Part shown: piece by piece, positions 2,450 through 37,000 of the stretch
Numbering within the stretch: the first letter of the stretch is position 1
Layout: every line of letters starts with the position of its first letter
Source of the DNA: a virus
IMG/VR virus record: IMGVR_UViG_3300023223_000827
Span: 1-37,841 of that record
Length of the DNA stretch: 37,841 nt
Strand: one strand, 5' to 3'
The notes under the pieces: model-generated
The model's input: the letters and a program-made list of their open reading frames with translations, nothing else
What the model was told of the DNA's origin: nothing
Databases searched by the model: none
Translations under genes and position numbers: made by a program

Positions 2450-4087
2450 ATGGCGATTGATGTCAAAAGTGAAGTTGCTGCGTTCGCGCCGATGAAAACC
2501 GAGAGATCAACTACGGATCAGGTCTGGCAGCAAATCAGAAACAACATGCAGCCTGATGATCAGAGTTTTACCGGCAAGGATGCCGCGGGCTCTACAAATC
2601 GTTCAGAAGTCCTGGACGGTGCTGGTGAAAAAGCCGGTGAGTTGACGGCTTCTGCACTTCATAATTCACTTTCAAATCCCTCTACACGCTGGCTTGATCT
2701 GTCTGGTGTTGTTGGTCGTGCCAAACTTGATGATGCTGATACGTTATGGTTGATGGAAGCGACTTCCGATGCCCTGGCGATGTTTGATTCCGGTGATTCC
2801 GGTTTTTCCGCTGCTCAGCAAATCAAATATCGCGCTACAGTTTTTTATGGCATGGCGGGTGTATTTATCGAGGAAAAGCCCGGTGTCGGAGCCTTTTTCC
2901 TATCTGTTCCACTGCAGGAAATTTATGTCAATGAGGGGCCGGATGGCCGTGTTAATGAGGTGTGGCGGGAATTTGAGTTGACGGCGTCGCAGGCTGTAAA
3001 ACAATTCAATCGTCCGGGTGATCTTCCGGGTGACGATGTACTTGAAAACATGAAAAAGCCAGAAGATCAGCAGAAAAAAACAAAATTCCTGCATATAACC
3101 CGGCCACGAAATAGTATTTCTGATGGTATCGGGCCAAAATCCATGCCGATAGAATCGGTTTATATCAATCTCGAAAAGGAAACGCTTGTTCGTGAGAGTG
3201 GTTTCCCGGAATGGCCGTGGTCGGTTCCGCGCTGGAGCAAGCGAGCTGGTGAAAAATATGGCCGTGGGCGTGGTCATATTGCATTGCCTGATGTTAAAAT
3301 GGCTCATCGTCTGGCAGGGGCAACGATTGAATCACTTGAGAAGAATGTTGATCCTGCCTTGCAGCTTCCAGATGATGGTGTGATGGGTATCCCCACGCTG
3401 GCCAGGGGCGGATTGAACTATGTCCGATCTGATTTGTTCCGTCATGGTGATCCGATTCGGAAAATTCATGCAGGCGGTGCAACAAATCTGGGTATTGATT
3501 ATTCAAACCGTCTTGATGATCAAATCCGTGATGCGTTTCTGAACAGCTTGTTGTCGATCTCTGCAGATCCGCGTATGTCGGCAACGCAGGTTGTGACGCT
3601 GGATCAGAAATCTGAAAACATCCTTGGTCCGATTATCGGATCATTTGAGGCAGAAGATCTTGACCCGATGGTCAACCGTGTTCTGGGTATTGGTATCCGG
3701 TCCGGCCAGATTCCGCCACCCCCTGAAAACCTGCAGGGCAAGCCTCTCAAAATTATTTATACATCGCCATTGGCCAGGCGGCGGCGTTCCGGTGAAGTTG
3801 TGGCCATTGCAAAAACATTTACCGTTCTGGCTCCCATGGCACAAATCCGGCCTGATATCTGGGATAATTTTGATTTTGATGCTACGGCAAGAATCGTTGC
3901 CGGTGTCGAAGGTGTGCCACCAGGCGTATTGAGGGCGTTTAAAGAAGTTGAGAAAAAACGGGCTATTGATGCTGCCAAGCGTCAGGAAATTGAACAGATC
4001 GAACAGGCTTCGACTGTTGCTTCTGCTGCCGGTGCTGCTGCGCCTGCCCTGCAAATTCTGCAAGGGGGAAAAAGTGAAGCCAGCTAA
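2450..4087 (+). CDS. Portal (head-tail connector) protein
   Basis: This 545-residue protein would form the dodecameric ring at the capsid vertex through which DNA enters and leaves, docking terminase and then the tail. Length, position after terL, and segments such as QVWQQIRNNMQPDD near the N-terminus and the helical Ala-rich C-terminus fit the T7-type head-tail connector family. A TTG six bases upstream is also in frame, but ATG 2450 is preceded by GGGA at an 8-base distance. The stop overlaps the GTG of the next gene. Confidence 0.9.
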   Translation: MAIDVKSEVAAFAPMKTERSTTDQVWQQIRNNMQPDDQSFTGKDAAGSTNRSEVLDGAGEKAGELTASALHNSLSNPSTRWLDLSGVVGRAKLDDADTLWLMEATSDALAMFDSGDSGFSAAQQIKYRATVFYGMAGVFIEEKPGVGAFFLSVPLQEIYVNEGPDGRVNEVWREFELTASQAVKQFNRPGDLPGDDVLENMKKPEDQQKKTKFLHITRPRNSISDGIGPKSMPIESVYINLEKETLVRESGFPEWPWSVPRWSKRAGEKYGRGRGHIALPDVKMAHRLAGATIESLEKNVDPALQLPDDGVMGIPTLARGGLNYVRSDLFRHGDPIRKIHAGGATNLGIDYSNRLDDQIRDAFLNSLLSISADPRMSATQVVTLDQKSENILGPIIGSFEAEDLDPMVNRVLGIGIRSGQIPPPPENLQGKPLKIIYTSPLARRRRSGEVVAIAKTFTVLAPMAQIRPDIWDNFDFDATARIVAGVEGVPPGVLRAFKEVEKKRAIDAAKRQEIEQIEQASTVASAAGAAAPALQILQGGKSEAS

Positions 4088-4436
4088 CGTTTTGAACAGG
4101 TTGCGGCGGATATTGTCACAGCGTTTTGGTCGCAGTGATGATCAGAATGTGAACATGACAAAGCTGGTTGAAGCCTATCAGGTTTTTGCGGAGACAGATG
4201 TCGGCAAGATTGTTTTAAATGATCTGCTGGAATTTACGGGTATTGAAAAAGATCCGTATTGTGAAGGTGATTCCCATGGAACGAGCCGATTAGTGGGTGC
4301 GCAGCGTGTTGGTCGTCGAATTTTGACATTTATGGGCACTGATTTGCGACAGTACATGATTTTAGAAAAGGAAATGCGCGATGAACACAAAGAACATAAA
4401 AAATCAACCAGAGAACAAACAGCCATCCTCGAATAA
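4074..4436 (+). CDS. Bbp19-like structural protein
   Basis: The protein has 120 residues. The stretch from FAETDVGKIVLNDLL through GIEKDPYCEGDSHGTSRLVGAQRVGRRIL matches the pattern of the Bbp19 family of BPP-1: a phosphate-loop-free helical protein with a conserved (A/S)..EG.R.V...I core. It sits in the same place, just after the portal. The start is GTG at 4074, preceded by AAGGGGGAA; it overlaps the portal stop by 14 bases. Upstream sequence in this frame is a shadow of the portal gene. The 3' end overlaps the next gene by 56 bases, so the charged tail (KEHKKSTREQ) is dual-coding. Its function in the virion is not established. Confidence 0.75.
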   Translation: MKPANVLNRLRRILSQRFGRSDDQNVNMTKLVEAYQVFAETDVGKIVLNDLLEFTGIEKDPYCEGDSHGTSRLVGAQRVGRRILTFMGTDLRQYMILEKEMRDEHKEHKKSTREQTAILE

Positions 4437-5232
4437 CGGTAAGGTCCTGCAGCCTGCTGATTATGAGAAGCTGCGCGTTACTGTAACAAAACTTAATCCT
4501 CAGGATGAGGCTCACTGGAATAAGTCCGGTGGCCCTAATATGAATTATATCAATGAAGCCATGGGGATGGTGATCACGGCTGATCATATGAAAACTGCCG
4601 GTGTCGATGGATGGAATCGTGAGGTTTCACAAAAGCTAGCGGATGATCTGGTTGATCGTGAAGTTGTTAAAAAGAAGATTGATGAAAAAGTCGGTGGTGA
4701 AAACGGTGGAGGTGAAGGCAACGCTAAAACTGTACCTGGTCCAGTTGAGATTGGTGGCGAAGATCATCAAAAAATCATGGAAGAATTTCCTGCTCCCGAA
4801 ACTCCGCTTGAACGTGAAGAGCGTGAGCGGCAGGAGGCCAGATCCATGAGCTTGGAAAATGATCAGGGAAAAGCCAATAAGCATGATGAGAGTGCGGCAA
4901 AGATCCGCGCTCAGGTCGCAGCTCAGAAAAAAGCCGATATAAAACACGAAAAAAATCTGGCGGCAAAGAAGAAACAGCAAGAGGCTGACGATGAGATCGC
5001 TGTAACTGAGCGTCAGGAGCGTGTTGCTCTTGAGCCTTCTGTGCATGGACTGGTTGATATGGATAAAGGACCAGGTCCGGATGATGTTAATCCTATGATC
5101 CGCATTGATCGGCTTGAACGGGCCGTTTTGACCTTATCCAAGATCCTGCTGGATACGCCAATGACGCCGGTCCAGCGTGGCAAGCTTGCCAATTGTGTTG
5201 CCCTTCTCGATCCGTCTTCTGATGAAGATTGA
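4381..5232 (+). CDS. Charged protein of the head operon, function unknown
   Basis: This 283-residue protein is very hydrophilic. It contains KLNPQDEAHWNKSGGPNMNYINEAMG around residues 37-62, a short module found in many phage proteins of the form LDP..D..W...G.P. A long Lys/Glu/Ala coiled-coil stretch (about 150-215) and a C-terminal RLERAVLTLSKILLD helix follow. ATG 4381 has AAAGGA 8 bases upstream. It lies between the Bbp19-like gene and the scaffold; a scaffold-associated or assembly role is a guess from composition and position. It may be a second scaffold component. Confidence 0.75.
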   Translation: MNTKNIKNQPENKQPSSNNGKVLQPADYEKLRVTVTKLNPQDEAHWNKSGGPNMNYINEAMGMVITADHMKTAGVDGWNREVSQKLADDLVDREVVKKKIDEKVGGENGGGEGNAKTVPGPVEIGGEDHQKIMEEFPAPETPLEREERERQEARSMSLENDQGKANKHDESAAKIRAQVAAQKKADIKHEKNLAAKKKQQEADDEIAVTERQERVALEPSVHGLVDMDKGPGPDDVNPMIRIDRLERAVLTLSKILLDTPMTPVQRGKLANCVALLDPSSDED

Positions 5233-5262
5233 TCATTAATCAAGTTTTAAATGGAGTTACCC

Positions 5263-6261
5263 ATGTTAATTAATTTCAATCGTATTTGTCGTTCTCCTGC
5301 TGATGATGGCGGCGCTGCTGCTGCTGCCGGTGGTGATGCCGCTGCTGCTGCCGCTGCTGCTGCCGGTGGTGGTGGTGATGCCGCTGCCGCTGCCGCTGCC
5401 GCTGCCGCTGCCGCTGCCGCTGCCGCTGCCGCTGCCGCTGCTGCTGGTGGTGGTGATGGTGGTGGTGATGCCCTGTTGGGCGGCGGCGGTGCTGCTCTGC
5501 CAGTAAAGCCCGAATGGGCAGTGGGAATGTCAGATGATAGCTGGAAGTCTGTTGCTGCAAATGATTATAAGAACCTTGATGATGTTGTCGCGGCTCATAA
5601 TAATCACCAGTCAAAAATCGGTTCTGACAAGTTTATTGTTCCCGGTGAAAACTCAACGCCTGAGGATTGGGATGCCGCCTATAATGCGCTTGGTCGCCCT
5701 GCCGAGGCAAAGTTATATGAGATTCCCATGCCGGAAGGTTTTGAGCCGACAGAAAGTGATCTGGCTTTTCATGAGAGTTTCAAGGGTAAGGCTCATGAGC
5801 TTGGCCTGAATCAAAAGCAGCTCGCTGGTCTGGCGGACTGGAATAATGAACATCTGGCAAAGGCCGCTGTTGATCTGGAAGCTGCGCAAAGTGCAGCGGC
5901 TGAAAAAACCAAGGCATCATTGCGGCAGCATTATGGTGCCGAGGCCGATAACAAGCTGGAAGCTGCTAATGCATTTTTGAAAAATATCGCTGGTGCAGAA
6001 GTTTCATCTATGTTTAAAAACTCAGATCTCAGCCGTCATTTTCCAACGGTTGACTGGGTTATCAAAATGGCGGAAATGGCTGCTGGTGAGGGCGGTCTTG
6101 TTGGTGCCGGTGATGGTGGTGGCGGTGGGCCTTCGCTTGCTGCCCAGATCAAAACAGCGATGGCAGATCCGATATATAATGATGCGAAAAACCCAGGTCA
6201 TAAGGAATTACGGGCGCAAGTCGGAAAAATGCGTAAGATACTGAATGAAAGTAAAGCTTGA
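5263..6261 (+). CDS. Putative head scaffolding protein with Ala/Gly repeat
   Basis: The 332-residue protein precedes the capsid gene, where T7- and BPP-1-like phages place the scaffold that shapes the prohead. Residues 15-75 are almost only Ala and Gly. The folded part (about 80-300) contains VGMSDDSWKSVA, YEIPMPEGFEPTESDLAFHE and long helices (LAGLADWNNEHLAKAAVDL), and ends in a basic helix (AQVGKMRKILNESK) as scaffold capsid-binding ends often do. ATG 5263 is chosen because GGAG lies 6 bases upstream; ATG 5251 lacks a binding site. The N-terminal tract is encoded by a pure hexanucleotide repeat, so its length may vary between isolates. Confidence 0.8.
   Translation: MLINFNRICRSPADDGGAAAAAGGDAAAAAAAAAGGGGDAAAAAAAAAAAAAAAAAAAAAAGGGDGGGDALLGGGGAALPVKPEWAVGMSDDSWKSVAANDYKNLDDVVAAHNNHQSKIGSDKFIVPGENSTPEDWDAAYNALGRPAEAKLYEIPMPEGFEPTESDLAFHESFKGKAHELGLNQKQLAGLADWNNEHLAKAAVDLEAAQSAAAEKTKASLRQHYGAEADNKLEAANAFLKNIAGAEVSSMFKNSDLSRHFPTVDWVIKMAEMAAGEGGLVGAGDGGGGGPSLAAQIKTAMADPIYNDAKNPGHKELRAQVGKMRKILNESKA
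5380..5442 (+). repeat. Hexanucleotide tandem repeat GCCGCT, about 10 copies
   Basis: GCCGCT is repeated about ten times without interruption inside the scaffold gene, encoding polyalanine. Interrupted GCT and GGT triplet runs flank it from about 5310 to 5490. All three forward frames and the reverse frames stay open through it, giving artefactual Pro-Leu and Gln-Arg frames. Confidence 0.95.
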
Positions 6262-6513: not shown

Positions 6514-7404
6514 ATGGGAAGCCAAATTGATGTAGCATACGTGGATAATTTTAGTGAAAATATCCATATGCTCGCTCAGCAAAAAGAATCTAAATTGATG
6601 CCAACGGTTCGCAATGACGTTTCTACCGGAAACGGTGGGCAGTTCTATTTTGATCGTCTCGGCCTGGTCGAAGCGAATGAAGTTATCGGGCGGCATGTTG
6701 ATACGATTCTGAATGATCCGCCTCACTCCAGACGTGTGATTATCCCGCGTGATTTTAGTATTGCGTCGATGCTGGATGATGCGGACGTAATTCGTATTAT
6801 CAGCCAGGGGGCTTTTGATTCTAAATACGAAATGGCCCAGCTCAACGGTCTGCATCGTAAACAGGATGATTTGATCATCGTAGCCGGTCTTGGCGATTCA
6901 ATTGCCATTGATGAGGATCGTGGTCAAACGGTGGTTCCTCTGCCTTCGTCTCAAAAGGTTCTGGCTGGTGGTACAAAGCTGACAAAGGCGAAAATTCTTT
7001 CAGCAAAACTGATTCTCGACAATAACGATGTTGGTGAAGAGTTGAAACGTCTTGCCGTGGTCAGTCCGTCCGGAATTAATGATCTTCTGGAAGATTCGGA
7101 AGTTGTCAGTTCTGATTTCAACACCGTTAAGGCGCTGGTCAACGGTGAAATTGATACATGGCTTGGTTTTAAGTGGATCAAGACAACCCGTCTACCGTTG
7201 CTTGTGCCTGGTGGCACGGTTCGTCGAACGATGTTTTATACAGAGGGTGCGATAGGTGTAGCGTTGCCTCAGGCGATCAACACATCCGTTGATAAGCGGC
7301 CTGATAAAAATAACGGCGAACAGATTTTGTCAAAGTTCTCTCAGGATGCAACGCGCATTGAGGAAGAGCTGTTTGTTGAGGTGCAGTACGACGAAGCTGC
7401 TTAA
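6514..7404 (+). CDS. Major capsid protein (Bbp17-like)
   Basis: The 296-residue shell protein would have the HK97 fold. It starts with VAYVDNFSENIHMLAQQKESKL, then GGQFYFDRLG, an E-loop-like basic segment (NDPPHSRRVIIPRDF) and LDDADVIRI; the C-terminal half contains FKWIKTTRLPL. These match the pattern of capsid proteins of BPP-1-like podoviruses. ATG 6514 follows AAAGGA at 8 bases and the hairpin-rich leader. The scaffold gene lies upstream and a cement protein downstream. A hairpin directly after the stop probably limits read-through or protects the message. Confidence 0.92.
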   Translation: MGSQIDVAYVDNFSENIHMLAQQKESKLMPTVRNDVSTGNGGQFYFDRLGLVEANEVIGRHVDTILNDPPHSRRVIIPRDFSIASMLDDADVIRIISQGAFDSKYEMAQLNGLHRKQDDLIIVAGLGDSIAIDEDRGQTVVPLPSSQKVLAGGTKLTKAKILSAKLILDNNDVGEELKRLAVVSPSGINDLLEDSEVVSSDFNTVKALVNGEIDTWLGFKWIKTTRLPLLVPGGTVRRTMFYTEGAIGVALPQAINTSVDKRPDKNNGEQILSKFSQDATRIEEELFVEVQYDEAA

Positions 7405-7477: not shown

Positions 7478-7960
7478 ATGGCCGTCACAAATGAAAACTC
7501 GTTACAGATTGGCAGGATTCTCGCTGGTGCAATCAAAAACCTGACAACGGATCTTATGGGTCGTATGCGTAAGATGCGGTTCGATTTCACCCAGGGCGCT
7601 GCTGCGGGGGATGCGACTTCTACAATGTCCCTGATTATTCTGCCGCCTGGTCGCAATCGTATTTATCTGCGCGATTGCATTGTTGCGTTTAGCGCCTTTG
7701 GTGCTGCGCGTGTCCTTGATATTGGCTATGCGGCTTATACAGATCGTGATGGTAATGCCGTTGCGGCTGCTCCGGCTGCATTTGTCAATGATTTGGATGT
7801 GTCCTCTGCTGGTACGTCCTCATTTGCTGGTGTGGTTGGTGGTGAAGAGAGTTTCCTGTTTGAGAACAGAGACTCCGTTACCATTATTGGCACGGTGGCC
7901 GGTGGTACGATACCGGCTGCAGCAACATTGAACGGTGACGCGACAATCGTTCGTGATTGA
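7478..7960 (+). CDS. Capsid cement protein (Bbp16-like)
   Basis: The 160-residue protein follows the capsid gene, as Bbp16 does in BPP-1, where it decorates and stabilises the shell. It has a mainly beta pattern (STMSLIILPPGRNRIYLRDCIVAF, then VLDIGYAAYTDRDG) and no signal peptide or membrane segment. ATG 7478 has AAGGAG 8 bases upstream. Hairpins on both sides make it a nearly separate transcription unit, consistent with high, adjustable expression. The identification rests on position, size and the N-terminal RMRKMRFDFT segment. Confidence 0.8.
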   Translation: MAVTNENSLQIGRILAGAIKNLTTDLMGRMRKMRFDFTQGAAAGDATSTMSLIILPPGRNRIYLRDCIVAFSAFGAARVLDIGYAAYTDRDGNAVAAAPAAFVNDLDVSSAGTSSFAGVVGGEESFLFENRDSVTIIGTVAGGTIPAAATLNGDATIVRD

Positions 7961-22802: not shown

Positions 22803-23240
22803 ATGACGAAATATGGTGATATCAGTGCAGTTGATATTCTGGCCAGGACGATTTATGGCGAAGCGCGGGGCGAAAAGTTTTTGGGTAAACTGGCAGTGGC
22901 CTGCGTGGTGATGAACCGTGTACATGCCGATCTCAACAACGATAATAAGCCGGACTGGTGGGGGGAAGGTGTCAAGGCCATCTGCCTAAAACCTTATCAG
23001 TTCTCCTGCTGGCTGGAAAACGATCCGAATCTGGAACACATCACGACAGTGCATGACGGATACGAGGATTTTCTGGTATGCCTGGCCATTGCTGCCGGTG
23101 CCATGGCTGGTGATTTTGAGGATGTGACGGGCGGGGCGACTCATTATCACACTAAGGCGATTATTCCGGCCTGGGCTAATGGTAAAGAGTGGTCTGCACT
23201 GATCGGCAACCACATCTTTTATGCGGGCATCGAGTCATGA
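22803..23240 (+). CDS. Cell-wall hydrolase, SleB (Hydrolase_2) type endolysin
   Basis: The 145-residue protein matches the SleB-type hydrolase family: LARTIYGEARGE near the N-terminus with the conserved Glu (E20), LAVACVVMNRV, the AICLKPYQFSCW segment, and THYHTKAIIPAWA near the end. It should cleave peptidoglycan at the end of infection. There is no signal peptide, so it needs a holin to reach the wall. ATG 22803 has GAGAG 7 bases upstream. Its stop overlaps the lipase start (ATGA). Confidence 0.9.
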   Translation: MTKYGDISAVDILARTIYGEARGEKFLGKLAVACVVMNRVHADLNNDNKPDWWGEGVKAICLKPYQFSCWLENDPNLEHITTVHDGYEDFLVCLAIAAGAMAGDFEDVTGGATHYHTKAIIPAWANGKEWSALIGNHIFYAGIES

Positions 23241-24062: not shown

Positions 24063-24076
24063 GCCATGTACATGGC
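24063..24076. repeat. Palindrome GCCATGTACATGGC, copy 1
   Basis: A perfect 14-base palindrome just beyond the 3' end of the MazG-like gene. Its core CATGTACATG recurs at 25599, 26824 and 36471 and nowhere else that I can see. It could be a protein binding site; here it is not at a start codon of any evident gene. Confidence 0.7.
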
Positions 24077-24080
24077 TAAA

Positions 24081-24392
24081 TTATTCCGGTTTTTCAGTCT
24101 GCATATATACCAGGAGTTTCCGTCTTTTGTCCTGGGCTCCGTTCTCAATCGCAACCGGCAAAATCATTTCTTCTGCTTTAAGCTTGTCAACCATCACCAA
24201 CAAGTTACCGATTTCATGACCTAATCGATAACTGTTGGTGTGGTTCTGGCCGGGTTCGATCTCGTTCATGCCGAAACGCTGAGCCTTGGTGATCCGTTGA
24301 ATGACTTCCGCGCATTCTTCTGTGGTGATCTGAAGAATTTCGTTTTCGTAATCCGTCGGCGGCGGACAGGGTGATTTGTATTTTTGAGTCAT
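24081..24392 (-). CDS. MazG-like nucleotide pyrophosphohydrolase
   Basis: The 103-residue, all-helical protein has TTEECAEVIQRITKAQRFGM (EE..E motif at 25-29) and LGHEIGNLLVMVDKL (60-69). This is the pattern of phage MazG-type NTP pyrophosphohydrolases, which hydrolyse nucleoside triphosphates. The usual second motif is E..D; here the Asp is Asn63, so metal binding or activity may be altered. ATG 24392 has AGAGGA 9 bases upstream and overlaps the preceding gene (ATGA). Last gene of the leftward operon. Confidence 0.75.
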   Translation of the reverse strand: MTQKYKSPCPPPTDYENEILQITTEECAEVIQRITKAQRFGMNEIEPGQNHTNSYRLGHEIGNLLVMVDKLKAEEMILPVAIENGAQDKRRKLLVYMQTEKPE

Positions 24393-24616
24393 GGTCTGTT
24401 ATCCTCTTGGTCTTTGGCTTTAATTAACCAGGTTTCACAAAGGCCAGTATGATCAACAGCGACGCGTTCAAAAAACTCTTGTGGATATTTATTATTAAAT
24501 CCTGTTGTTTTGCCCCCAGCAGGAGTTCCTTTTACTTCAACAATTTCATAACCGTCATCTTGAAGAAACTTGATGAATGCCTCTGTAATTAATTTTCTAA
24601 CTGTTCCAGGGGGCAT
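24389..24616 (-). CDS. Small hypothetical protein
   Basis: The 75-residue protein is not recognised. It begins PPGTVRKLITEAFIKFLQDDGY, continues with a Gly/Lys/Thr-rich stretch (GTPAGGKTTGFNNKYP) and ends acidic. The GTPAGGKTTG stretch is not a proper Walker A. AGGAG lies 6 bases before ATG 24616. It sits between the recombinase and the MazG-like gene and overlaps the latter by 4 bases. Confidence 0.75.
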   Translation of the reverse strand: MPPGTVRKLITEAFIKFLQDDGYEIVEVKGTPAGGKTTGFNNKYPQEFFERVAVDHTGLCETWLIKAKDQEDNRP

Positions 24617-25218: not shown

Positions 25219-25601
25219 GATTTCTTTTCCTCTCGGCGTTGTTTGTGGGCTTTTCTGGCGGCGGAATAGGCCTGACATACTTTGGTGAAGCTGCCCTTTT
25301 CACGCTTCACTCTCCATGCGTCCAGTGCTTTGGCGATGGCAGGCCCTCGACTCTTCCAGAAATTGTTCCATCCCTGCTGGCATATTGATGAACAGAATTC
25401 CTTATCCGGATTGTCGGTCTCGAACACTTCATTGCATTCCTTGCAATTGGTTGTCAGGGGCTTCGGTTTATTGTTGCGTTGTTTCTGTGCGTGTTTGTGT
25501 TCACGGCGGCAAATTTTATTGCAATAAATCTGGTTGACCCGAGGTTCAAGCAGTCCCTTGCCGCACCATTTACACTCCCTGGATGGTGTTTTCGTTGGCA
25601 T
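25215..25601 (-). CDS. Double zinc-finger protein
   Basis: The 128-residue protein has two metal-binding modules: C10-x2-C13 with C27-x3-C31, and C53-x2-C56 with C70-x3-C74. They are followed by a basic helical C-terminus (AYSAARKAHKQRREEKKS). DNA binding is likely, the target unknown. Two in-frame ATGs (25607 and 25601) lie in a copy of the CATGTACATG palindrome; 25601 is 8 bases from AGGAG and is preferred. It overlaps the recombinase start by 4 bases and may partner with it as an excision or directionality factor, which is speculation from position. Confidence 0.75.
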   Translation of the reverse strand: MPTKTPSRECKWCGKGLLEPRVNQIYCNKICRREHKHAQKQRNNKPKPLTTNCKECNEVFETDNPDKEFCSSICQQGWNNFWKSRGPAIAKALDAWRVKREKGSFTKVCQAYSAARKAHKQRREEKKS

Positions 25602-25782
25602 GTACATGGCTCCTGTAAGTGGTTTTCTTTCCGTTCCGGAAAGGCTGGCTCATGGCATCGATCCATTTCTGATGCTCCGGACAGAAATGTTTGTTTGTTG
25701 AAACATCGTTAAAACAAACACTGGCGTCACTCGGTCCGAGATACTGCCATTTGCAGAAACTATGATGAGTTTTTTTAGCCAT
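25570..25782 (-). CDS. GcrA-like Cys/His mini-protein
   Basis: The 70-residue protein has C10-x12-C23-x10-C34-P-E-H37, followed by a basic Ser/Arg-rich tail. The pattern equals the C-terminal zinc-like motif of the alphaproteobacterial cell-cycle regulator GcrA, without its N-terminal DNA-binding part. A sister protein is encoded at 26831-27034. ATG 25782 is preceded by GGAGG at 9 bases and overlaps the repressor gene; the longer in-frame form from 25812 lacks a site. It may bind host sigma factor or other GcrA partners, by analogy only. Confidence 0.65.
   Translation of the reverse strand: MAKKTHHSFCKWQYLGPSDASVCFNDVSTNKHFCPEHQKWIDAMSQPFRNGKKTTYRSHVHANENTIQGV
25599..25608. repeat. Palindrome CATGTACATG, copy 2
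   Basis: The core palindrome covers both possible start codons of the zinc-finger gene (ATGTACATG read leftward). The flanks are GG on the left and GC on the right, so symmetry ends at the core. A protein bound here would block translation initiation DNA or transcription through the start. Confidence 0.65.
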
Positions 25783-26365
25783 TTGGAGCCGCCTCCGGAT
25801 CGGGTGTTTCATTCAGTGCGGCGGTCAGAGATCTATTTAGGTCAAATCCCTTGCCGTTTGAGGCCAGGAAAAAGGCTTCAACCATATTCTCGGTAAAAGG
25901 TACGGGAACATGAGCCCATTTTTCAATATTTGTATGTTCATTTGAATGGTCGGGGGCTGCAGCAAGCGCGGCATCAAGCGGGAATTCTCTTCCTTTATCT
26001 GCAATTTGTGGGCATTTTGCATAAAATGTTGCTGCCATTTCTTTTGTGAAATGATCGGGAATAAGTTTCCAGTCGCTTTTGTGCGGTATTTTTACTTGTA
26101 TAGATATTGGCGGTCCGCTGAGTTGCTGGTTGCAGTTTAAAGACTGAACCGGGAAAAAATAACCGATATTAAGGGATAATACATCGGCATAATGATACAG
26201 AGTCATGGCGGATATTCTGTTTTCGCCTGATTCATATTTGTGTATCTGCTGAGCGCTGACATTTAATTTTCTGCCCACAAAAGCAAGTGTGAGCTTTTGA
26301 CTTTTCCGGGCTTCGTAAAGTTTATGCCCGATAAATTTACTAATATTAGGGTGTTGCGGTGACAT
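25775..26365 (-). CDS. XRE-family repressor with duplicated C-terminal module
   Basis: The 196-residue protein has an N-terminal helix-turn-helix (residues 11-71; LTLAFVGRKLNVSAQQIHKYESGENRISAM in parts), of a type common in alphaproteobacteria. It is the candidate lysogeny repressor, facing a Cro-like gene. No LexA-like peptidase domain is seen. Instead the C-terminus contains two related copies: FTKEMAATFY...FPLDAALAAAPD (106-139) and FTENMVEAFF...FDLNRSLTAALNETPD (157-189). They may be a dimerisation or ligand module. ATG 26365 has AGGAG 8 bases upstream. First gene of the leftward operon. Confidence 0.85.
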   Translation of the reverse strand: MSPQHPNISKFIGHKLYEARKSQKLTLAFVGRKLNVSAQQIHKYESGENRISAMTLYHYADVLSLNIGYFFPVQSLNCNQQLSGPPISIQVKIPHKSDWKLIPDHFTKEMAATFYAKCPQIADKGREFPLDAALAAAPDHSNEHTNIEKWAHVPVPFTENMVEAFFLASNGKGFDLNRSLTAALNETPDPEAAPNG

Positions 26366-26397: not shown

Positions 26398-26425
26398 ACA
26401 ATACCGAAAATCGTTACAAGTGCAA
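26398..26425 (-). promoter_or_regulatory. Candidate promoter for the repressor operon
   Basis: Read leftward: TTGCAC (26425-26420), a 16-base spacer, TATTGT (26403-26398). The -35 element overlaps the first inverted repeat of the operator region, as expected for a self-regulated repressor promoter. Confidence 0.55.
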
Positions 26426-26459
26426 CAAAAAAACGTTGCGTTTGCAACAATTATTGTTG
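26422..26459. promoter_or_regulatory. Divergent operator region with overlapping inverted repeats
   Basis: Three linked inverted repeats share GCAAC/GTTGC half-sites: GCAAC (26422) with GTTGC (26435); GTTGCGTTTGCAAC at 26435-26448; and CAACAATTATTGTTG at 26445-26459, a perfect 15-base palindrome around one central base. They lie between the repressor and cro-like genes, so they are the probable binding sites of both. A weak rightward promoter (TTGCGT 26436, TGTAGT 26458) overlaps them. It would start transcription close to the cro ATG. Confidence 0.7.
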
Positions 26460-26472
26460 TAGTGTCTGTTTC

Positions 26473-26682
26473 ATGGAAAATATTAATGATCAAATTGTCA
26501 GCAAAACACTGGCTCAATGGATGAATGATCACCAGGTCACGGATTCAGATCTTGCTGATTTGCTTGTCGTCTCCCGGCAAACAGTCTGGCGCTGGCGGGA
26601 AAAAGGAATTATCCCGCATCCCCGATACAGAAGGGATATTCAGTCTCACGCAGACTGTAATATTGTTTTTGGTGAAACATGA
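26473..26682 (+). CDS. Cro-like helix-turn-helix protein
   Basis: The 69-residue protein has a helix-turn-helix of the form TDSDLADLLVVSRQTVWRWREKGIIP and little else. Its position opposite the repressor makes it the probable Cro counterpart opening the early operon. No Shine-Dalgarno sequence precedes ATG 26473, and the likely transcription start is only a few bases upstream, so translation may be leaderless. The stop overlaps the next small gene (ATGA). Confidence 0.8.
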   Translation: MENINDQIVSKTLAQWMNDHQVTDSDLADLLVVSRQTVWRWREKGIIPHPRYRRDIQSHADCNIVFGET

Positions 26683-26813
26683 TTGGCCGAACGAAACGTG
26701 GCAAGAGATTGCTTTTTAACAGATGGGTAAAATATCTGTTGAGGAGCATGGCCATATTATTTCTGGCGGCTGTGATTGTTGTTTGTGTCATTGCCTATAT
26801 AGCATTCTTTTAA
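26679..26813 (+). CDS. 44-residue single-span membrane peptide
   Basis: A short gene overlapping the cro-like stop by 4 bases (ATGA). It encodes a basic N-terminus (IGRTKRGKRLLFNRWVKYLL) followed by one hydrophobic helix (MAILFLAAVIVVCVIAYIAFF in pieces) reaching the C-terminus. No Shine-Dalgarno sequence is evident; translational coupling to cro is likely. The codons fit the neighbours. Single-span peptides in early operons can act in superinfection exclusion or host takeover; nothing here proves it. Confidence 0.6.
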   Translation: MIGRTKRGKRLLFNRWVKYLLRSMAILFLAAVIVVCVIAYIAFF

Positions 26814-26821
26814 ATTTGGAG

Positions 26822-26835
26822 GCCATGTACATGGC
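26822..26835. repeat. Palindrome GCCATGTACATGGC, copy 3
   Basis: A perfect 14-base palindrome, identical to copy 1, lying between the GGAGG ribosome binding site and the codons of the GcrA-like gene. It supplies two in-frame ATGs (26825 and 26831). Confidence 0.7.
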
Positions 26836-27034
26836 AGATAATCAGATATGTCGTTTCCCGCAGGGTGATGGTCCCGGTGCAGATTGGGATTTTTGTCCAA
26901 AGAATGCTCAGAAAGATTCCGTCTATTGTCCGGAGCATCATAAGCGCTGTTATAATGGCTTTGTCACATCTACCAGAAAGAAAAAAGGCGGAATGCGGTT
27001 CATGCCACCAAAGGCAGCAAGGAATTTAAACTGA
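26831..27034 (+). CDS. GcrA-like Cys/His mini-protein, second copy
   Basis: The 67-residue protein has C7-RFPQGDG-...-DWDFC22-...-YC33-P-E-H36. This is close to the C-terminal region of GcrA (CRWPIGDP...DFHFC...PYC..H). A basic tail follows (TSTRKKKGGMRF). The N-terminal DNA-contacting half of GcrA is absent. ATG 26831 is 8 bases from GGAGG; ATG 26825 is too close. The stop overlaps the next ATG (TGATG). Same motif as the leftward gene at 25570-25782, but the two differ strongly elsewhere. Confidence 0.7.
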   Translation: MADNQICRFPQGDGPGADWDFCPKNAQKDSVYCPEHHKRCYNGFVTSTRKKKGGMRFMPPKAARNLN

Positions 27035-27579
27035 TGCCAGCTTTTAATTTCAAAGAACAATTCGCTCCTGATGTCGAGTCCGGAAAAAAGAGAGGGACGA
27101 TTAGAGCATTCAGAAATGACGGAAAGCCTCATGCAAAAGTTGGCGATACCTTGATGCTTTATACCGGAATGCGAACAAAAGCATGTCGAAAATTAAGGGA
27201 TGCTACCTGCACAAAAATAACGCCTGTTCATATCGCGGAATGGGGTGGATTCCTATGTTTGTTCCTGGATGGTGTCCTGATCCTTGATGATCACGAATTT
27301 GCCAAGGACGACGGATTCGAAACATCGAAACAATTTTACGAATTTTTTGAGAAGACTCACGGATTACCGTTTTATGGGAGCCTGTTTGAGTGGGATCCAA
27401 CGTCGAGTCATGGCGTTAAAGAAAACAAATGTGACTCATATATCCAGTCAGATGGAAAGCTGATTTGTGATAGTTGCATGATCGTTGTTGAGCCAGGCTC
27501 ACCAATTCCGATTTGTGAAAAGACTCGATTCAAAATAGTAACGTCCGTTAACGCACAAACTGAGAAGGAACAAAGATGA
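27034..27579 (+). CDS. ASCH/PUA-like domain protein
   Basis: The 181-residue protein shows the ASCH pattern: FAPDVESGKKRGTIRAFRND, then VGDTLMLYTGMRTKACRKL and CTKITPVHI. ASCH domains bind RNA or modified bases, and phage versions are common in alphaproteobacterial phages. The C-terminal 50 residues contain ENKCDSYI...ICDSC, a possible metal site not typical of the domain. The protein ends TSVNAQTEKEQR, the first of seven related tails in consecutive genes. ATG 27034 overlaps the previous stop by 1 base. Confidence 0.75.
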   Translation: MPAFNFKEQFAPDVESGKKRGTIRAFRNDGKPHAKVGDTLMLYTGMRTKACRKLRDATCTKITPVHIAEWGGFLCLFLDGVLILDDHEFAKDDGFETSKQFYEFFEKTHGLPFYGSLFEWDPTSSHGVKENKCDSYIQSDGKLICDSCMIVVEPGSPIPICEKTRFKIVTSVNAQTEKEQR

Positions 27580-27797
27580 TGGGTATAAGTTGCACGTACT
27601 TTAGCGACATGCGAATGGTTCTTTCAGCGTGTCGTCGCAAAGGTTTTGACGGTGATTATGAGGAGTGGGCAGCGTTTGACAGGCTGTGGAATAATCTGAT
27701 GGCAGCTTGCCCGCCAGAGGGCGCGAGTACAGGCATCATGATGACTAACCGCAAAACTTCCGTTTGTGAGACAGATAAAGGAACAGAAAATGGATAA
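27576..27797 (+). CDS. Small early protein with TSVCET tail
   Basis: The 73-residue protein is not recognised. It is Met- and Cys-rich at first (MMGISCTYFSDMRMVLSACRR), then YEEWAAFDRLWNNLMAACP. The end is KTSVCETDKGTENG, the tail shared with neighbours. ATG 27576 has AAGGA 6 bases upstream and overlaps the ASCH stop (ATGA). It overlaps the next gene by 8 bases. Confidence 0.65.
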   Translation: MMGISCTYFSDMRMVLSACRRKGFDGDYEEWAAFDRLWNNLMAACPPEGASTGIMMTNRKTSVCETDKGTENG

Positions 27798-28338
27798 GCG
27801 CGAGAAAGGGCCGATTGAAATCCTCTGCAAAGAAATCGACTTCCGTTTTGACAAGCGCATGGAAAGCAAAGAAGTGTTTATAGCATTCGTCACTGTTCTG
27901 GTGGTTCAAGTTGCACGGATACGATATATGCAACATCAACTATCTGGCGTGACTAACGTAAAGCCCTCCGAAAAATCAAAGGATATTCTTGTTCGCATTA
28001 ATGATATGCTGCATGAGCCGGATGCTGATGTAATGGTCGAAAAGGCAGCGGCAATTCATAACCATCTTCATTCTATCGGCACGGAGGAAGAATACCCGTG
28101 CGACCATTTGGTTGATATGCTTTCGTCGTGTGTGTCCGCAATCCGGTTCGGGCTAGAGAAGCCGTGCAAATCACGTCACGCAGCATCAGCCGCCGACCAT
28201 ATCTGGAAACATGTCTACGGCATTTCTCTATTCGATAGCTTCACATCGAATTGGCGAAACGATTGGTCACGGGCGCAGCTGCAAGAGGCAATTCTGAATA
28301 TGTCCGTTTGCGAACACGAAAGGAAAGCCGATGTCTGA
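27790..28338 (+). CDS. Early protein of unknown function
   Basis: The 182-residue protein is not recognised. An N-terminal part with a hydrophobic stretch (VFIAFVTVLVVQVARI) is followed by helices and a His/Cys-containing region (YPCDHLVDMLSSCVSAIRFG, HAASAADHIWKHVYG). The hydrophobic stretch is short and may be a buried helix. ATG 27790 has AAGGA 7 bases upstream. The tail reads NMSVCEHERKADV, a diverged copy of the shared ending. Overlaps the next gene by 8 bases. Confidence 0.7.
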   Translation: MDKREKGPIEILCKEIDFRFDKRMESKEVFIAFVTVLVVQVARIRYMQHQLSGVTNVKPSEKSKDILVRINDMLHEPDADVMVEKAAAIHNHLHSIGTEEEYPCDHLVDMLSSCVSAIRFGLEKPCKSRHAASAADHIWKHVYGISLFDSFTSNWRNDWSRAQLQEAILNMSVCEHERKADV

Positions 28339-28537
28339 CATAATGAACGAAGTTTCAAAAATGACGGATGATCGGTTGGCGATTGAATGGCACCGGATTG
28401 CCTGTATCCCAATGGAGCGCGTTACAACCGAAGACCGCACACGAATGTTGGCGCTCGATTTTGAGGGAATGCGGCGGAAGTACGGTTTTAAAAATACGGC
28501 TGTTTCTGAGACGCTGGAGAAGGAGGAGAAAAGCTAA
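28331..28537 (+). CDS. Small early protein, charged helical
   Basis: The 68-residue, charged and mostly helical protein (KMTDDRLAIEWHRIACIPMERV) is not recognised. It ends TAVSETLEKEEKS, related to the shared tail, with the next gene's GGAGAAGGAGG inside those codons. ATG 28331 has AAAGGA 6 bases upstream. The stop shares a base with the next start (TAATG). Confidence 0.65.
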   Translation: MSDIMNEVSKMTDDRLAIEWHRIACIPMERVTTEDRTRMLALDFEGMRRKYGFKNTAVSETLEKEEKS

Positions 28538-28794
28538 TGACCGCCAGTACAGAATGGTTGCTAGGCTTACAGAAGCAAGGCGAGGACAATATATGGCGTC
28601 CTGCTCTTGTAGCCAGAGAAGAGATTGAAACGCTTCGGGCGGCTCTTTGGAAAGCCGAAAGAAAACTCTCTGCGTATGTCGGCGTGTGCGCTGGCGATAA
28701 GGAATTAACGGAGGATATTTTGCCTTCAATCCGCGCTGCATTGCATGGCGATAAACAAACTTCCCTTAATGAGACACTGGAGAACAAGTCATGA
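28537..28794 (+). CDS. Small early protein, coiled-coil-like
   Basis: The 85-residue protein has a long helix (REEIETLRAALWKAERKLSAYVGV). It ends QTSLNETLENKS, very like the tail of the preceding gene. The GGAGAAGGAGG preceding ATG 28537 is a strong binding site. No family is recognised. Overlaps the next gene by 4 bases (ATGA). Confidence 0.65.
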   Translation: MTASTEWLLGLQKQGEDNIWRPALVAREEIETLRAALWKAERKLSAYVGVCAGDKELTEDILPSIRAALHGDKQTSLNETLENKS

Positions 28795-29096
28795 AGATTA
28801 CTGTTGAAGTCGGATCAAAAGGACAGGCGCGGCTCATTGAAACCATGGCCGAAAAGTTGCGGCGAGGAAATAAAAAATCGCTGAAATGGACCAACATGTC
28901 GCCGATCCAACTGCTTAATTTAATGAACCGTGAAGCCGACGAACTCGCTGCCTCGATTGGGTTCTCTCCACGCGGCATGCGTATCCCTCAGAACGGCGAA
29001 CCGTGGAAAGAGGCTGCGGACGTTGCCAACTTTGCAGCGATGGTGGCCGACCGTGCTACCTCGTCCGTTTGTGAGACAGGAGATAGTCATGAGTAG
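28791..29096 (+). CDS. MazG-like early protein A
   Basis: The 101-residue protein contains E48-x2-E51 (NREADELAASIGF) and W-KEAADVANFAAMVADR with E74-x2-D77 and N80. This second motif is the signature of small phage MazG-type pyrophosphohydrolases. The first part (ITVEVGSKGQARLIETMAEKL) is not typical of the family. Ends SSVCETGDSHE, the shared tail in its clearest form. ATG 28791 has GGAG 8 bases upstream. Probably hydrolyses non-canonical or signalling nucleotides; the substrate cannot be read from sequence. Confidence 0.65.
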   Translation: MKITVEVGSKGQARLIETMAEKLRRGNKKSLKWTNMSPIQLLNLMNREADELAASIGFSPRGMRIPQNGEPWKEAADVANFAAMVADRATSSVCETGDSHE

Positions 29097-29412
29097 TACC
29101 GAGAACGAAGAACTGCGTCTTGTCACGCTTTTATCAAATCACATGGTCTTGAAACTTGCAGAGAACAGATTCAAAAGCCATTGGGATTATGAAACGTTAC
29201 AGTTTTTTTCAATGCGCCTTACTCAAGAAAAGAAAGAGTTAATGAGGGCTGTGCAGTCAGGGGCTTCGGCTGAGGATGTTTGGCGTGAAGCCGCCGACAT
29301 AGCCAATTTTGCTGCCATGCTTGCCGATAATTATGCGAAGGGAAATTTCGAAAACCATAAGCCCCAAACTTCCGTATCTGACCAGACAGAGGCCGACAAT
29401 GCCAAATCGTAA
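29089..29412 (+). CDS. MazG-like early protein B
   Basis: The 107-residue protein has FKSHWDYETLQFF, QEKKELMRAV (E47-x2-E50) and WREAADIANFAAMLADN (E67-x2-D70, N73), the standard small phage MazG-type arrangement. ATG 29089 is 6 bases from GGAG; the longer in-frame extension upstream lies in protein A's gene. It ends QTSVSDQTEADNAKS, the last of the seven tails. Proteins A and B share the second motif but little else. The 3' end overlaps the next tiny ORF. Confidence 0.75.
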   Translation: MSSTENEELRLVTLLSNHMVLKLAENRFKSHWDYETLQFFSMRLTQEKKELMRAVQSGASAEDVWREAADIANFAAMLADNYAKGNFENHKPQTSVSDQTEADNAKS

Positions 29413-29479
29413 ACCATTGATCGGAAAGTGTTCGCAAGCCGTGGGCGATTGGTGTCTCAGAAACGGCAGGGTTAATTGA
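29399..29479 (+). CDS. 26-residue ORF between MazG-like B and the next gene
   Basis: MPNRKPLIGKCSQAVGDWC begins this tiny protein. It overlaps both the upstream stop region and the next ATG (TGATG). No good binding site precedes it (GAGG 11 bases away). It may be a translated linker that couples the flanking genes. The two cysteines could bind metal, but nothing supports a function. Confidence 0.35.
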   Translation: MPNRKPLIGKCSQAVGDWCLRNGRVN

Positions 29480-29688
29480 TGCAGTTGAAAATTAAATTCA
29501 AGGATGATGTGCCGTACAGCATGGCAACGCATTTGATTAATAATCTCTTTGAGTATTGCCAGCTTTTTGACTTGGTTTCTGAGGTGTCGATGTCATTCGA
29601 TGATGGCGAAGAAGAACAGTTAATGGATACGGAGCGAAGGCGCGTCCCCCGAATTAAAAAAGGAATTATTGATGAAAATACAGTATGA
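29479..29688 (+). CDS. Small hypothetical protein
   Basis: The 69-residue protein (MQLKIKFKDDVPYSMATHLIN, then FDLVSEVSMSFDDGEEEQ) is not recognised; a ferredoxin-like alpha/beta pattern is possible. ATG 29479 is used because the TTG three bases before is weaker. It overlaps the next gene by 17 bases. The C-terminus is basic (ERRRVPRIKKG) and contains the next gene's AAGGA site. Confidence 0.6.
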   Translation: MQLKIKFKDDVPYSMATHLINNLFEYCQLFDLVSEVSMSFDDGEEEQLMDTERRRVPRIKKGIIDENTV

Positions 29689-30646
29689 CAATAACACTTT
29701 TGGAACGCGCCCTTTAAAGTGGATGGCAAGTGGAGATACCCCACTTGAAGCCCTTCTCATCGCTGATAAAATTTTAGATGATTACAGGGATGACGGATAC
29801 ACCCTCACGCTCAGGCAATTATTTTACCAGTTTGTTGGCCGTGGTCTTTTTAACGCCGATCTATTGTCTGATCCGGAAGAGGGACAGAAAATTTACAAAA
29901 ACTTTGGCACATTGGTTCGCAAAGGTAGAGACAATGGGTTGTTGTCCTGGACAGCCATTGAGGACCGTGGACGTTCATTGAGTGGCCTGTATAGCCATGA
30001 AGAAGATGACCATGAAGTTGTTTACAACCTTGACTCCCTCCTCACAATTGACCATTGGGCTCGACAAGAAGCTTATGTTGAAGTGTGGGTTGAAAAAGAT
30101 GCGCTAAGCAATGTGATCGACAGGGCTTGCAGTGACTTTCAAGTCCCATATCTTGCGACCAAGGGTTATCTGTCATCATCAGAAGCATGGAGTGCTGGTC
30201 AGAGGTTCAAACGACAGCACAACGACGGCAAAAAATGCGTTATGATCCACCTTGGCGACCACGACCCTGAAGGCATTGACATGACCAGGGATAATGATGA
30301 TCGGGTCGCCAAATATTCAAACCTCAATCAAGTCGAAGTCAGGCGCATTGCCTTGAATATGGATCAAGTGATTCAGTACGATCCACCGCCGAACTGGGCA
30401 AAAGCCTCATCAAGCAGGTTTGACGGATATGTCAGCGCATATGGCGACAAATGCTGGGAGCTAGATGCTCTTGAGCCATCTATTATTGTTGACCTGATTG
30501 AAAAAGAAGTTGCTCAATTTGTCGATATGGATGCATGGGAAGAATGTGACGTTCGGCAGGAAGAAAAACGCCACCACCTAAGAAAACTTCATACCCATTG
30601 GGACGAAGTGAAATCCTTCCTCGATGACCTTGGTGATTTCGATTAA
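29672..30646 (+). CDS. TOPRIM protein resembling topoisomerase VI subunit A
   Basis: The 324-residue protein combines a winged-helix-like part and a TOPRIM domain. LTLRQLFYQFVGRGL (residues 45-59) resembles the segment of Spo11/Top6A that carries the DNA-cleaving tyrosine; Y52 is the candidate. VEVWVEKDAL with E141 and IHLGDHDPEGID with D196 and D198 form the metal-binding TOPRIM triad. No partner ATPase (Top6B) gene is in the window. It could be a nuclease or nicking enzyme for replication or recombination. ATG 29672 has AAGGA 7 bases upstream. A 225-base structured non-coding stretch follows its stop. Confidence 0.75.
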   Translation: MKIQYDNNTFGTRPLKWMASGDTPLEALLIADKILDDYRDDGYTLTLRQLFYQFVGRGLFNADLLSDPEEGQKIYKNFGTLVRKGRDNGLLSWTAIEDRGRSLSGLYSHEEDDHEVVYNLDSLLTIDHWARQEAYVEVWVEKDALSNVIDRACSDFQVPYLATKGYLSSSEAWSAGQRFKRQHNDGKKCVMIHLGDHDPEGIDMTRDNDDRVAKYSNLNQVEVRRIALNMDQVIQYDPPPNWAKASSSRFDGYVSAYGDKCWELDALEPSIIVDLIEKEVAQFVDMDAWEECDVRQEEKRHHLRKLHTHWDEVKSFLDDLGDFD

Positions 30647-30871
30647 CAGAGTGCGAAATAGAGGATTTGAATAAGGAATACCCTAGCGAAATGGGAATGT
30701 AGACGATCAGGCGAAGCAACAGTTTAGTAGCCTGATAAGAGTTCCCAAAGTAGGCCAACCACCCATGGCGTATTGGGTGGCCCTAGTAGAAGGGGGATAC
30801 TTCCACTGAACGACTAATGTCCAGCCGGGGTGCGATGCCTGGCACTCTTTTACAAACGAGGGATTTTAGAA
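30647..30871 (+). ncRNA. Non-coding stretch with nested stems, candidate structured RNA
   Basis: There is no gene in these 225 bases. TGGGAA (30692-30697) pairs with TTCCCA (30742-30747) and encloses ATCAGGC (30706-30712) paired with GCCTGAT (30730-30736). Directly after, TAGG (30751-30754) pairs with CCTA (30782-30785) and encloses CCACCCA (30759-30765) paired with TGGGTGG (30774-30780). A third weaker fold, GTGC with GCAC, lies near 30830-30844. No T-run follows, so these are not terminators. A leader or small RNA controlling the primase block is possible. Confidence 0.5.
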
Positions 30872-31160
30872 ATGGGTAAGTCGAACAGAATAGAAATGGA
30901 CTATCGGGGGATGAGAGCAAAACAATTTGCGTCACAGATCCTTCATACATTGCAAGACTATCTCCCGACAGATGGGCGCACCAAGCAGCGTATCTATGAA
31001 CATCTATTTGAAACAGCACACGCTCAGAACGCTCTCATTGTCAGTGTACCGCCAGAATTTGACCTGCTTTCTAAGATGGAATCGGAACGTGAAATAAACA
31101 AACGAATGCTAGAGCCGTTTGTAATGAATTTTGGCGATGTGAAACCATAAACGAGGGATT
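30854..31160 (+). repeat. Repeated 12-base leader AAACGAGGGATT (30854-30865 and 31149-31160)
   Basis: The same 12 bases precede two consecutive genes, the 92-residue protein and the primase. The GAGGG could act as a ribosome binding site for the first (9 bases away), but it is about 17 bases from the second start. The second copy begins at the last base of the preceding stop codon. Confidence 0.6.
30872..31150 (+). CDS. Small protein upstream of primase
   Basis: The 92-residue protein (MGKSNRIEMDYRGMRAKQFAS, then TDGRTKQRIYEHLFETAHAQNA) is not recognised. It is charged and helical, without membrane segments. ATG 30872 is chosen over the in-frame ATG at 30830, which lies in the structured non-coding stretch. 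GAGGG lies upstream. Its place just before the primase suggests a replication accessory role, which is inference. Confidence 0.65.
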   Translation: MGKSNRIEMDYRGMRAKQFASQILHTLQDYLPTDGRTKQRIYEHLFETAHAQNALIVSVPPEFDLLSKMESEREINKRMLEPFVMNFGDVKP

Positions 31161-36458: not shown

Positions 36459-36492
36459 TGTTTCAGGCACCATGTACATGACACCTGAAACA
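36459..36492. repeat. Inverted repeat containing palindrome CATGTACATG, copy 4
   Basis: TGTTTCAGG (36459-36467) and CCTGAAACA (36484-36492) form 9-base arms. They flank the palindrome CATGTACATG (36471-36480), separated by 3 mismatched bases on each side. No T-run is next to it, so a simple terminator is unlikely. It lies just upstream of the zinc-ribbon gene and after the DnaJ-like gene, where it could act as an operator or RNA hairpin. Confidence 0.7.
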
Positions 36493-36502
36493 GTGTGATT
36501 GA

Positions 36503-37000
36503 TTAAGCCGGGACGTGTGAAACGTGGCTGTATTCCGGGCGGTGTGGTGCCGTTGATCCATATTTAGCGCGGATTTTCTCAAGACTTGTGCGGCCCTGGC
36601 TCTTAGATTTCCAGTTGTCCGGGCGAAAGTTCCACGCTTTTTTCTTGCTGGCGAACTTGTAACCACTGGCTTTGAGCGTGTCTTTATGGGTTCTTGTATC
36701 GCCGGTAACCCATACCCATGCCCCGCAGATCTCGATCAGCAGGCCGGGAAGGTTGATAATTGCGTTAATGGCATCGTTCAGGGCTTCGGGGTAGTCTTGG
36801 TTTGAACATTCCGCGTCGATTGTCCCGGTGAACTCTTTCAGGGTGTCAAAGGCCATATTGATGATTTTCATCATCTCAAGGCCTGCCGGGTTTATGTCGG
36901 GGTGATATTTCTTAGCCGCGGCCCTGTGGGCTGTTTTTACGGTCTCCGGCGTGATCTCTCCATCAAGATCAAGAACCTTGGCAGCATCTGAAGGTTTCAT
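36503..37000 (-). CDS. DnaJ-domain protein
   Basis: The 165-residue protein has a J-domain over residues 1-60 with the HPD tripeptide at 33-35 (AAKKYHPDINPAG). The J-domain stimulates the host DnaK ATPase. The C-terminal part (GAWVWVTGDTRTHKDTLKASG, then FASKKKAWNFRPDNW) is a module often fused to phage J-domains. A hydrophobic middle (INAIINLPGLLIEI) may anchor or fold. ATG 37000 has AAGGA 9 bases upstream and a promoter with a perfect TTGACA behind it. First gene of the leftward operon. Confidence 0.82.
   Translation of the reverse strand: MKPSDAAKVLDLDGEITPETVKTAHRAAAKKYHPDINPAGLEMMKIINMAFDTLKEFTGTIDAECSNQDYPEALNDAINAIINLPGLLIEICGAWVWVTGDTRTHKDTLKASGYKFASKKKAWNFRPDNWKSKSQGRTSLEKIRAKYGSTAPHRPEYSHVSHVPA

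Follow-up and report, generated by a model that had tools for sequence, protein, structure and literature searches.

The question of how phages come to carry series of small early genes is raised by a locus in a virus record of 37,841 bases, referred to here as the window. Seven consecutive genes of this locus, g1 to g7, end in related peptides that are encoded by related DNA, and each of them overlaps the start of the gene that follows.

The array and its genomic setting

The gene content of the window includes a head-tail adaptor, a major head protein, an endolysin and an integrase that is XerC-like by sequence, and the phage is temperate. Facing each other are a minus-strand repressor-like gene (25775-26365) and a small HTH gene at 26473; the array of g1 to g7 is found downstream of this repressor/cro-like switch and upstream of a topoisomerase-like gene (29672-30643) and a primase. 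Judged by this gene order, the region presumably represents an early operon. The topoisomerase-like protein matches phrog_6247 DNA topoisomerase; a weak match to the JetD defence family was also seen (E 0.001). Among the nearest homologues of g1 and the topoisomerase-like gene, several belong to alphaproteobacterial phages and genomes, and this relatedness makes an alphaproteobacterial host plausible. The genes of the array and the copies of the element found at their junctions are as follows.

27034..27579, plus: g1, ASCH-like protein of 181 aa with tail TSVNAQTEKEQR; homologues H65-H78
27541..27558, plus: element copy 1, ACGTCCGTTAACGCACAA; next ATG at 27576; the most diverged copy
27576..27797, plus: g2, 73 aa, no family; tail KTSVCETDKGTENG
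27756..27773, plus: element copy 2, ACTTCCGTTTGTGAGACA; next ATG at 27790
27790..28338, plus: g3, 182 aa, no family; tail NMSVCEHERKADV
28300..28317, plus: element copy 3, ATGTCCGTTTGCGAACAC; next ATG at 28331
28331..28537, plus: g4, 68 aa, no family; tail NTAVSETLEKEEKS
28496..28513, plus: element copy 4, ACGGCTGTTTCTGAGACG, followed by CTGGAGAAGGAG (SD); next ATG at 28537, TAATG overlap
28537..28794, plus: g5, 85 aa, no family; tail QTSLNETLENKS
28759..28776, plus: element copy 5, ACTTCCCTTAATGAGACA, followed by CTGGAGAA (SD); next ATG at 28791, ATGA overlap
28791..29096, plus: g6, 101 aa, MazG-like C-terminal signature WKEAADVANFAAM, paralogue of g7; tail SSVCETGDSHE
29061..29078, plus: element copy 6, TCGTCCGTTTGTGAGACA; next ATG at 29089
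29089..29412, plus: g7, 107 aa, MazG-like (WREAADIANFAAM), paralogue of g6; tail QTSVSDQTEADNAKS
29368..29388, plus: element copy 7, ACTTCCGTATCTGACCAGACA, with an in-frame 3-nt insertion, CCA; next ATG at 29399
29399..29479, plus: g8, possible 26-codon ORF overlapping the g7 tail; TGATG coupling to g9
29450..29473, minus: probable inverted copy 8, AACCCTGCCGTTTCTGAGACACCA, ending 6 nt before the g9 start
29479..29688, plus: g9, 69 aa, first gene after the array, without the tail

A junction element read in one frame

The seven consecutive, co-oriented gene junctions have an element of about 18 nt in common, with the consensus ACKTCCGTTTSTGAGACA. All seven copies point in one direction and lie within coding sequence, at the 3' end of the preceding gene and 5' of the ribosome binding site (RBS), rather than within the RBS or a non-coding gap. 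The element is translated in an identical frame in 7 of 7 cases, giving the motif [T/S]SV[C/S/N]ET; of the other frames, frame 1 runs through and frame 2 mostly stops 11-14 nt in, well before the next start. The S codon of the element precedes the stop by 10-13 codons and the next ATG by 25-38 nt, an SD-like GGA(G) or GAGG is located between the element and that ATG, and every one of the seven genes overlaps the next start by 1-14 nt. The onset of similarity is sharp, with a mean pairwise identity of about 0.25 (chance level) upstream of position -5 and of 0.62-0.76 over the core. When folded as RNA, the junctions showed neither a stable nor a conserved structure (z from -0.67 to +1.5), and the direct/inverted pair at 29355-29500 gave no significant fold (z 0.65).

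Much of this agrees with an initial annotation made from the sequence alone, which had reported seven consecutive genes with TSV-type tails, always in one frame, just before the next ribosome binding site, and with related DNA behind them. All seven tails read as reported, with the genes ending at 27579, 27797, 28338, 28537, 28794, 29096 and 29412, and the same sequence, TCCGTTTGTGAGACAG, was recovered at 27759 and 29064. The accompanying statement that the proteins are otherwise unrelated fails for g6 and g7, which are paralogues (E 7e-8 over 29 residues) and both fall in a MazG-like phage family.

Similarity of the junctions compared to chance

For a leave-one-out analysis, position weight matrices were trained on six copies and the seventh was placed. 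Using a 16-nt core, each copy ranked 1-4 among approximately 75,000 sites on both strands; at other widths the ranks were 1-24. An unsupervised motif search in 60-nt junction windows gave a best 16-nt motif over the seven junctions scoring 152.5, a value reached by 0 of 912 control sets (103.8 +/- 5.1, maximum 129.5), each made up of seven consecutive co-directional junctions from other phage or genome loci and somewhat noisy, since the control ORFs were called automatically and arrays in other phages may be hidden among them. A smaller control run gave 102.8 +/- 4.7 in 150 sets. The leave-one-out ranks, together with a score above the control maximum, exclude chance for the core, and the control junctions from elsewhere are not equally similar. 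The signal is a collective one, as a crude pairwise k-mer count of junctions did not flag the array and a pairwise survey of tails would flag g4/g5 as the sole pair.

Outside the training set, the best site (29450-29473, minus strand) falls at the junction that comes next after the array, just before the start of g9. It lies inside the 26-codon ORF and does not encode the tail. Depending on motif width, the genome-wide probability of such a site by chance is 0.007-0.13, and its position adjacent to the array adds to its credibility; by sequence it is a probable eighth copy of the element, in inverted orientation. No further copy at the level of the inverted one was found in the rest of the window, which confines the element to 27.5-29.5 kb, and copies were absent both from the repressor-cro intergenic region and from upstream of the genes outside the 1.9-kb array. 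A site on the minus strand at 24428-24451, reading HTGLCETW near the 3' end of the gene at 24389-24616 (opposite strand), was rejected as a weak resemblance at noise level.

Coding constraint and gene families

Frame and third-position conservation, which the initial annotation had put forward as a check, were compared over the seven copies. Identity was lowest at the third codon position (73, 73 and 54% at positions 1, 2 and 3), and when alignment columns were permuted, the synonymous fraction had p 0.035 and amino-acid similarity (BLOSUM) p 0.007 in the true frame, with nothing in the other two frames. These values, obtained from seven short sequences, hint at a coding constraint, that is, at selection on the peptide or on the frame. 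The extreme C-termini (EQR, ENG, ADV, EKS, NKS, SHE and AKS) are not conserved, and because the terminal residues vary, the tail does not have the appearance of an ssrA-type degron read at the C-terminus.

The tails were also compared to the families of the genes that carry them. Most homologues of g1 stop a few residues after a W-[ED]-P-like end, just past the conserved domain, and g1 continues for about 60 residues beyond that point. The homologues of g6 and g7 end in varied, unrelated sequences, at a median of 16 residues after an ANFAxM motif. The tail is thus not part of these gene families. In g6 and g7 the motif is followed by 17 and 30 residues, respectively, lengths that are ordinary for the family, so that appending cannot be proven there by length and only the sequence is special; the idea that the MazG homologues simply end earlier was dropped, given the broad range of lengths after their domain. 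No PHROGs family, convincing Pfam match or PADLOC match was obtained for g2 to g6. Furthermore, g7 and g3 were unmatched in 385 sampled genomes from the class of the Hyphomicrobiales MAG behind locus L093, in a search run without a positive control.

Duplicated junctions in other phages

As an array, the element was not found in other phages or in any locus examined, nor in L009, the closest relative by the topoisomerase-like gene (60%). When compared to viral contigs, the exact 18-nt pattern had no matches and a 15-nt pattern had 30 single matches without arrays, and exact peptide patterns from the topoisomerase-like and primase/helicase proteins revealed no relatives there; a search of phages with the DNA of 26400-31000 likewise returned no relatives. 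The initial annotation had suggested looking for the motif at gene ends in related phages, and no array of it was found in those examined. Neither a phage with the same genes and the element nor one with the same genes reordered was found, and as no genome with another order of these genes was found, no breakpoint was seen.

Duplicated junctions of other sequence were encountered in these loci. L009 carries a 54-nt stop-hairpin-SD-start cassette twice (4358-4411 and 4753-4806), between consecutive small genes just upstream of its topoisomerase-like gene, with a strong hairpin (GCCGGGG/CCCCGGC); another junction, about 79 nt long, is duplicated at 1895 and 4033. In L013, near-identical junctions of 48-49 nt (6892-6939 and 7905-7953) flank the topoisomerase-like gene, and shorter junction repeats bearing an RBS are present in L072, L110 and L201. 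As in the window, the cassettes of L009 and L013 consist of duplicated SD and start sequences that bracket genes at the same operon position beside the topoisomerase-like gene; they differ in being of unrelated sequence, and those of L009 are non-coding hairpins that add no tails. Across the panel, both copies lay at different gene ends in 37 of 246 self-repeat pairs, from 21 loci, a count that includes some multi-copy gene repeats and two loci from published phages added as controls. Two neighbouring genes of L290 end in an identical 12-aa sequence, AEVRAQQGRGAA (3639-3678 and 4771-4810), where 36 of 42 bases are identical and the changes in the tail are exclusively synonymous.

Comparison with described systems

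The initial annotation knew of no described system of this kind. This could not be upheld, as close precedents were found in start-associated sequences, the Microbacterium EC motif, boundary sequences and the gp67/gp68 pair of Island3. In Island3, a Mycobacterium phage of cluster I, gp67 and gp68 share their last 18 residues and the corresponding DNA, from which the authors inferred recombination between repeats of about 50 bp, a situation that they likened to boundary sequences; the sister phage Brujita is without the inserted gene (PMC3029335). The similarity was reproduced here, with copies of 47 nt at 96% identity. Both phages thus have adjacent unrelated genes with shared C-termini and DNA, in the same frame and with overlapping stop and start, but Island3 has two long, near-identical copies whereas the window has seven short, diverged ones, and gain or loss is visible only in Island3. 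Corndog carries a 17-bp direct repeat on either side of one gene, and its sister phages have that sequence once (PMC4351075). Lambdoid boundary (linker) sequences are proposed guides of modular exchange, according to the part of PMC3029335 that cites Clark et al. 2001 and Susskind and Botstein 1978. They are short repeats at gene boundaries, and the window element is likewise related at several boundaries; on the other hand, they are known from comparisons between phages, whereas the window element is repeated within one genome and translated.

Microbacterium phages of cluster EC contain an asymmetric 18-bp motif in 12 copies, which all point the same way and lie 5' of the RBS, 21-30 bp ahead of start codons (PMC7302621); we reproduced this in Quhwah. 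This motif resembles the window element in being short, asymmetric and of single orientation, at a similar distance from the start, 5' of the RBS and beside small genes; it differs in being highly conserved, genome-wide and located in non-coding gaps, where the window element occupies coding 3' ends in one operon. In cluster K mycobacteriophages, SAS occur at non-structural genes only, and one inverted copy is present in some of the phages (PMC3203893). Like the window element, they are repeated, asymmetric and tied to the starts of small non-structural genes, but SAS overlap the RBS, 3-7 bp before the start, and occur at many genes, and ESAS is an inverted repeat. Compared to the SAS/EC type, the window element therefore matches in orientation and in distance to the start, but not in RBS or non-coding location, nor in conservation at many loci or in relatives. 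T4-type PeSL are mobile junction cassettes with a stem-loop at the gene junction, a feature missing from the window element, which has no stable or conserved fold. Integron gene cassettes have a 3' imperfect inverted repeat and an IntI-type integrase; the window element showed no stable fold as RNA, and the phage has a XerC-like integrase.

Origin of the shared gene ends

We see about an even chance that the repeated unit is a duplicated gene-junction module, comprising the 3' end of one gene, the RBS and the start of the next, which keeps accreted small genes translationally coupled. Such a module would consist of the last 15-18 codons, an in-frame stop overlapping the next start and the ribosome binding site of the next gene. 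Small genes would have entered the stretch that separates the repressor/cro-like switch from the replication genes, and each of their junctions would have arisen from an existing junction or around one, as short junction sequences recombined with each other or were duplicated. A terminating ribosome would be delivered to the next start, and because only one frame brings it there, every added gene would receive the same DNA end in the same frame. The shared peptide tail would then be the translated part of the junction, without a function of its own. Of the explanations considered, this one best accounts for the tails on unrelated genes, the overlap, the frame, the confinement to a single operon and the recurrent junction duplications of unrelated sequence in relatives, and by analogy it is indirectly supported by the duplicated junctions of relatives and other phages and by the published two-gene case of Island3. 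It corresponds to the first reading of the initial annotation, a coupling or recombination junction, which gave the best fit, with frame, overlap and SD at 7 of 7 junctions; the shuffling that this reading also invoked we infer rather than observe. Against a duplicated module it can be held that the copies are short and diverged and that similarity limited to the core also fits selection on a site, that an inverted copy is unexpected from simple duplication, and that the coding constraint is a hint that the peptide is under selection. Recombinases of phages are able to work on sequences that have diverged (PMC2327257).

The main alternative, possible if somewhat unlikely, is that selection maintains a cis-acting, start-associated element to which a factor of the phage or the host binds, tuning translation or transcription of the small genes, with the frame as a by-product of the overlap. 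It would explain the sharp 16-18 nt core and the inverted copy better than a junction module, and the single orientation at 25-38 nt from the next ATG is consistent with it, as are the precedents of the 12-copy EC motif at 21-30 bp from starts (PMC7302621) and of the SAS, limited to non-structural genes and in some phages accompanied by one inverted copy as in the window (PMC3203893). The copies are, however, far less conserved than SAS or EC motifs, none precedes a gene outside the 1.9-kb array, no conserved RNA structure was found, and the element is coding here, with some coding constraint.

A functional C-terminal peptide common to the seven small proteins and serving targeting, assembly or turnover was the second reading of the initial annotation, and we regard it as unlikely. 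The identical frame in all seven, the constant 10-13 residues after the S, the 3-nt indel that preserves the frame and the excess of synonymous variation restricted to the true frame all speak for a peptide, although the coding statistics are weak. The overlap with the next start, however, already forces frame and length, the inverted copy would not encode a tail, homologues in other phages lack it, and the unconserved extreme C-termini do not fit a tag. The junction module, the cis-acting element and the peptide tag are mutually compatible. That one short element may serve at once as DNA recombination site, translational coupler and in-frame coding tail, such that an inserted small gene would automatically be expressed and tagged, appears quite improbable.

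Very doubtful are stoperator-like binding sites of the phage repressor that would silence read-through of the operon in the lysogen. The copies are asymmetric, oriented with transcription and placed at junctions downstream of a repressor/cro-like pair, with one inverted copy, but they are confined to 1.9 kb and show some coding constraint, and the repressor-cro intergenic region, where operators are expected, has none. Ribosome binding sites read as protein, by coincidence and chance, are a negligible explanation: gene ends containing an SD do force similar tails, as seen for the LEG endings from TTGGAGGGA in L228, but the conserved core lies upstream of the SD, and the motif score, reached by no control set, and the leave-one-out ranks refute coincidence for the core.

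Read as a duplicated junction module, the array extends the published two-gene example to seven genes and is an unusually long case. Together with the duplicated junctions of relatives, it suggests that small genes are recurrently added through the duplication of junctions, which maintains their translational coupling. Where neighbouring genes overlap, a shared gene end is a footprint for which any phage can be searched, and caution is warranted in that C-terminal likeness of neighbouring phage proteins can stem from the junction rather than from a shared function.

Other features of the window

A palindrome, GCCATGTACATGGC, occurs at 24063-24076, 25597-25610, 26822-26835 and 36469-36482, with weaker forms at 22915 and 23468; at up to three mismatches it has 9 matches, compared to 1.75 expected. 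Its ATG is the start of a gene at 25597 (minus) and at 26822 (plus), and because of this coincidence it may be an operator or a start-associated palindrome. In the structural region, a tandem 6-bp repeat, GCTGCC, is present in about 22 copies at 5317-5446 within the ORF at 5251-6261. The phage protein encoded at 36503-37000 on the minus strand carries a DnaJ domain at its N-terminus (Pfam DnaJ, E 6e-8).
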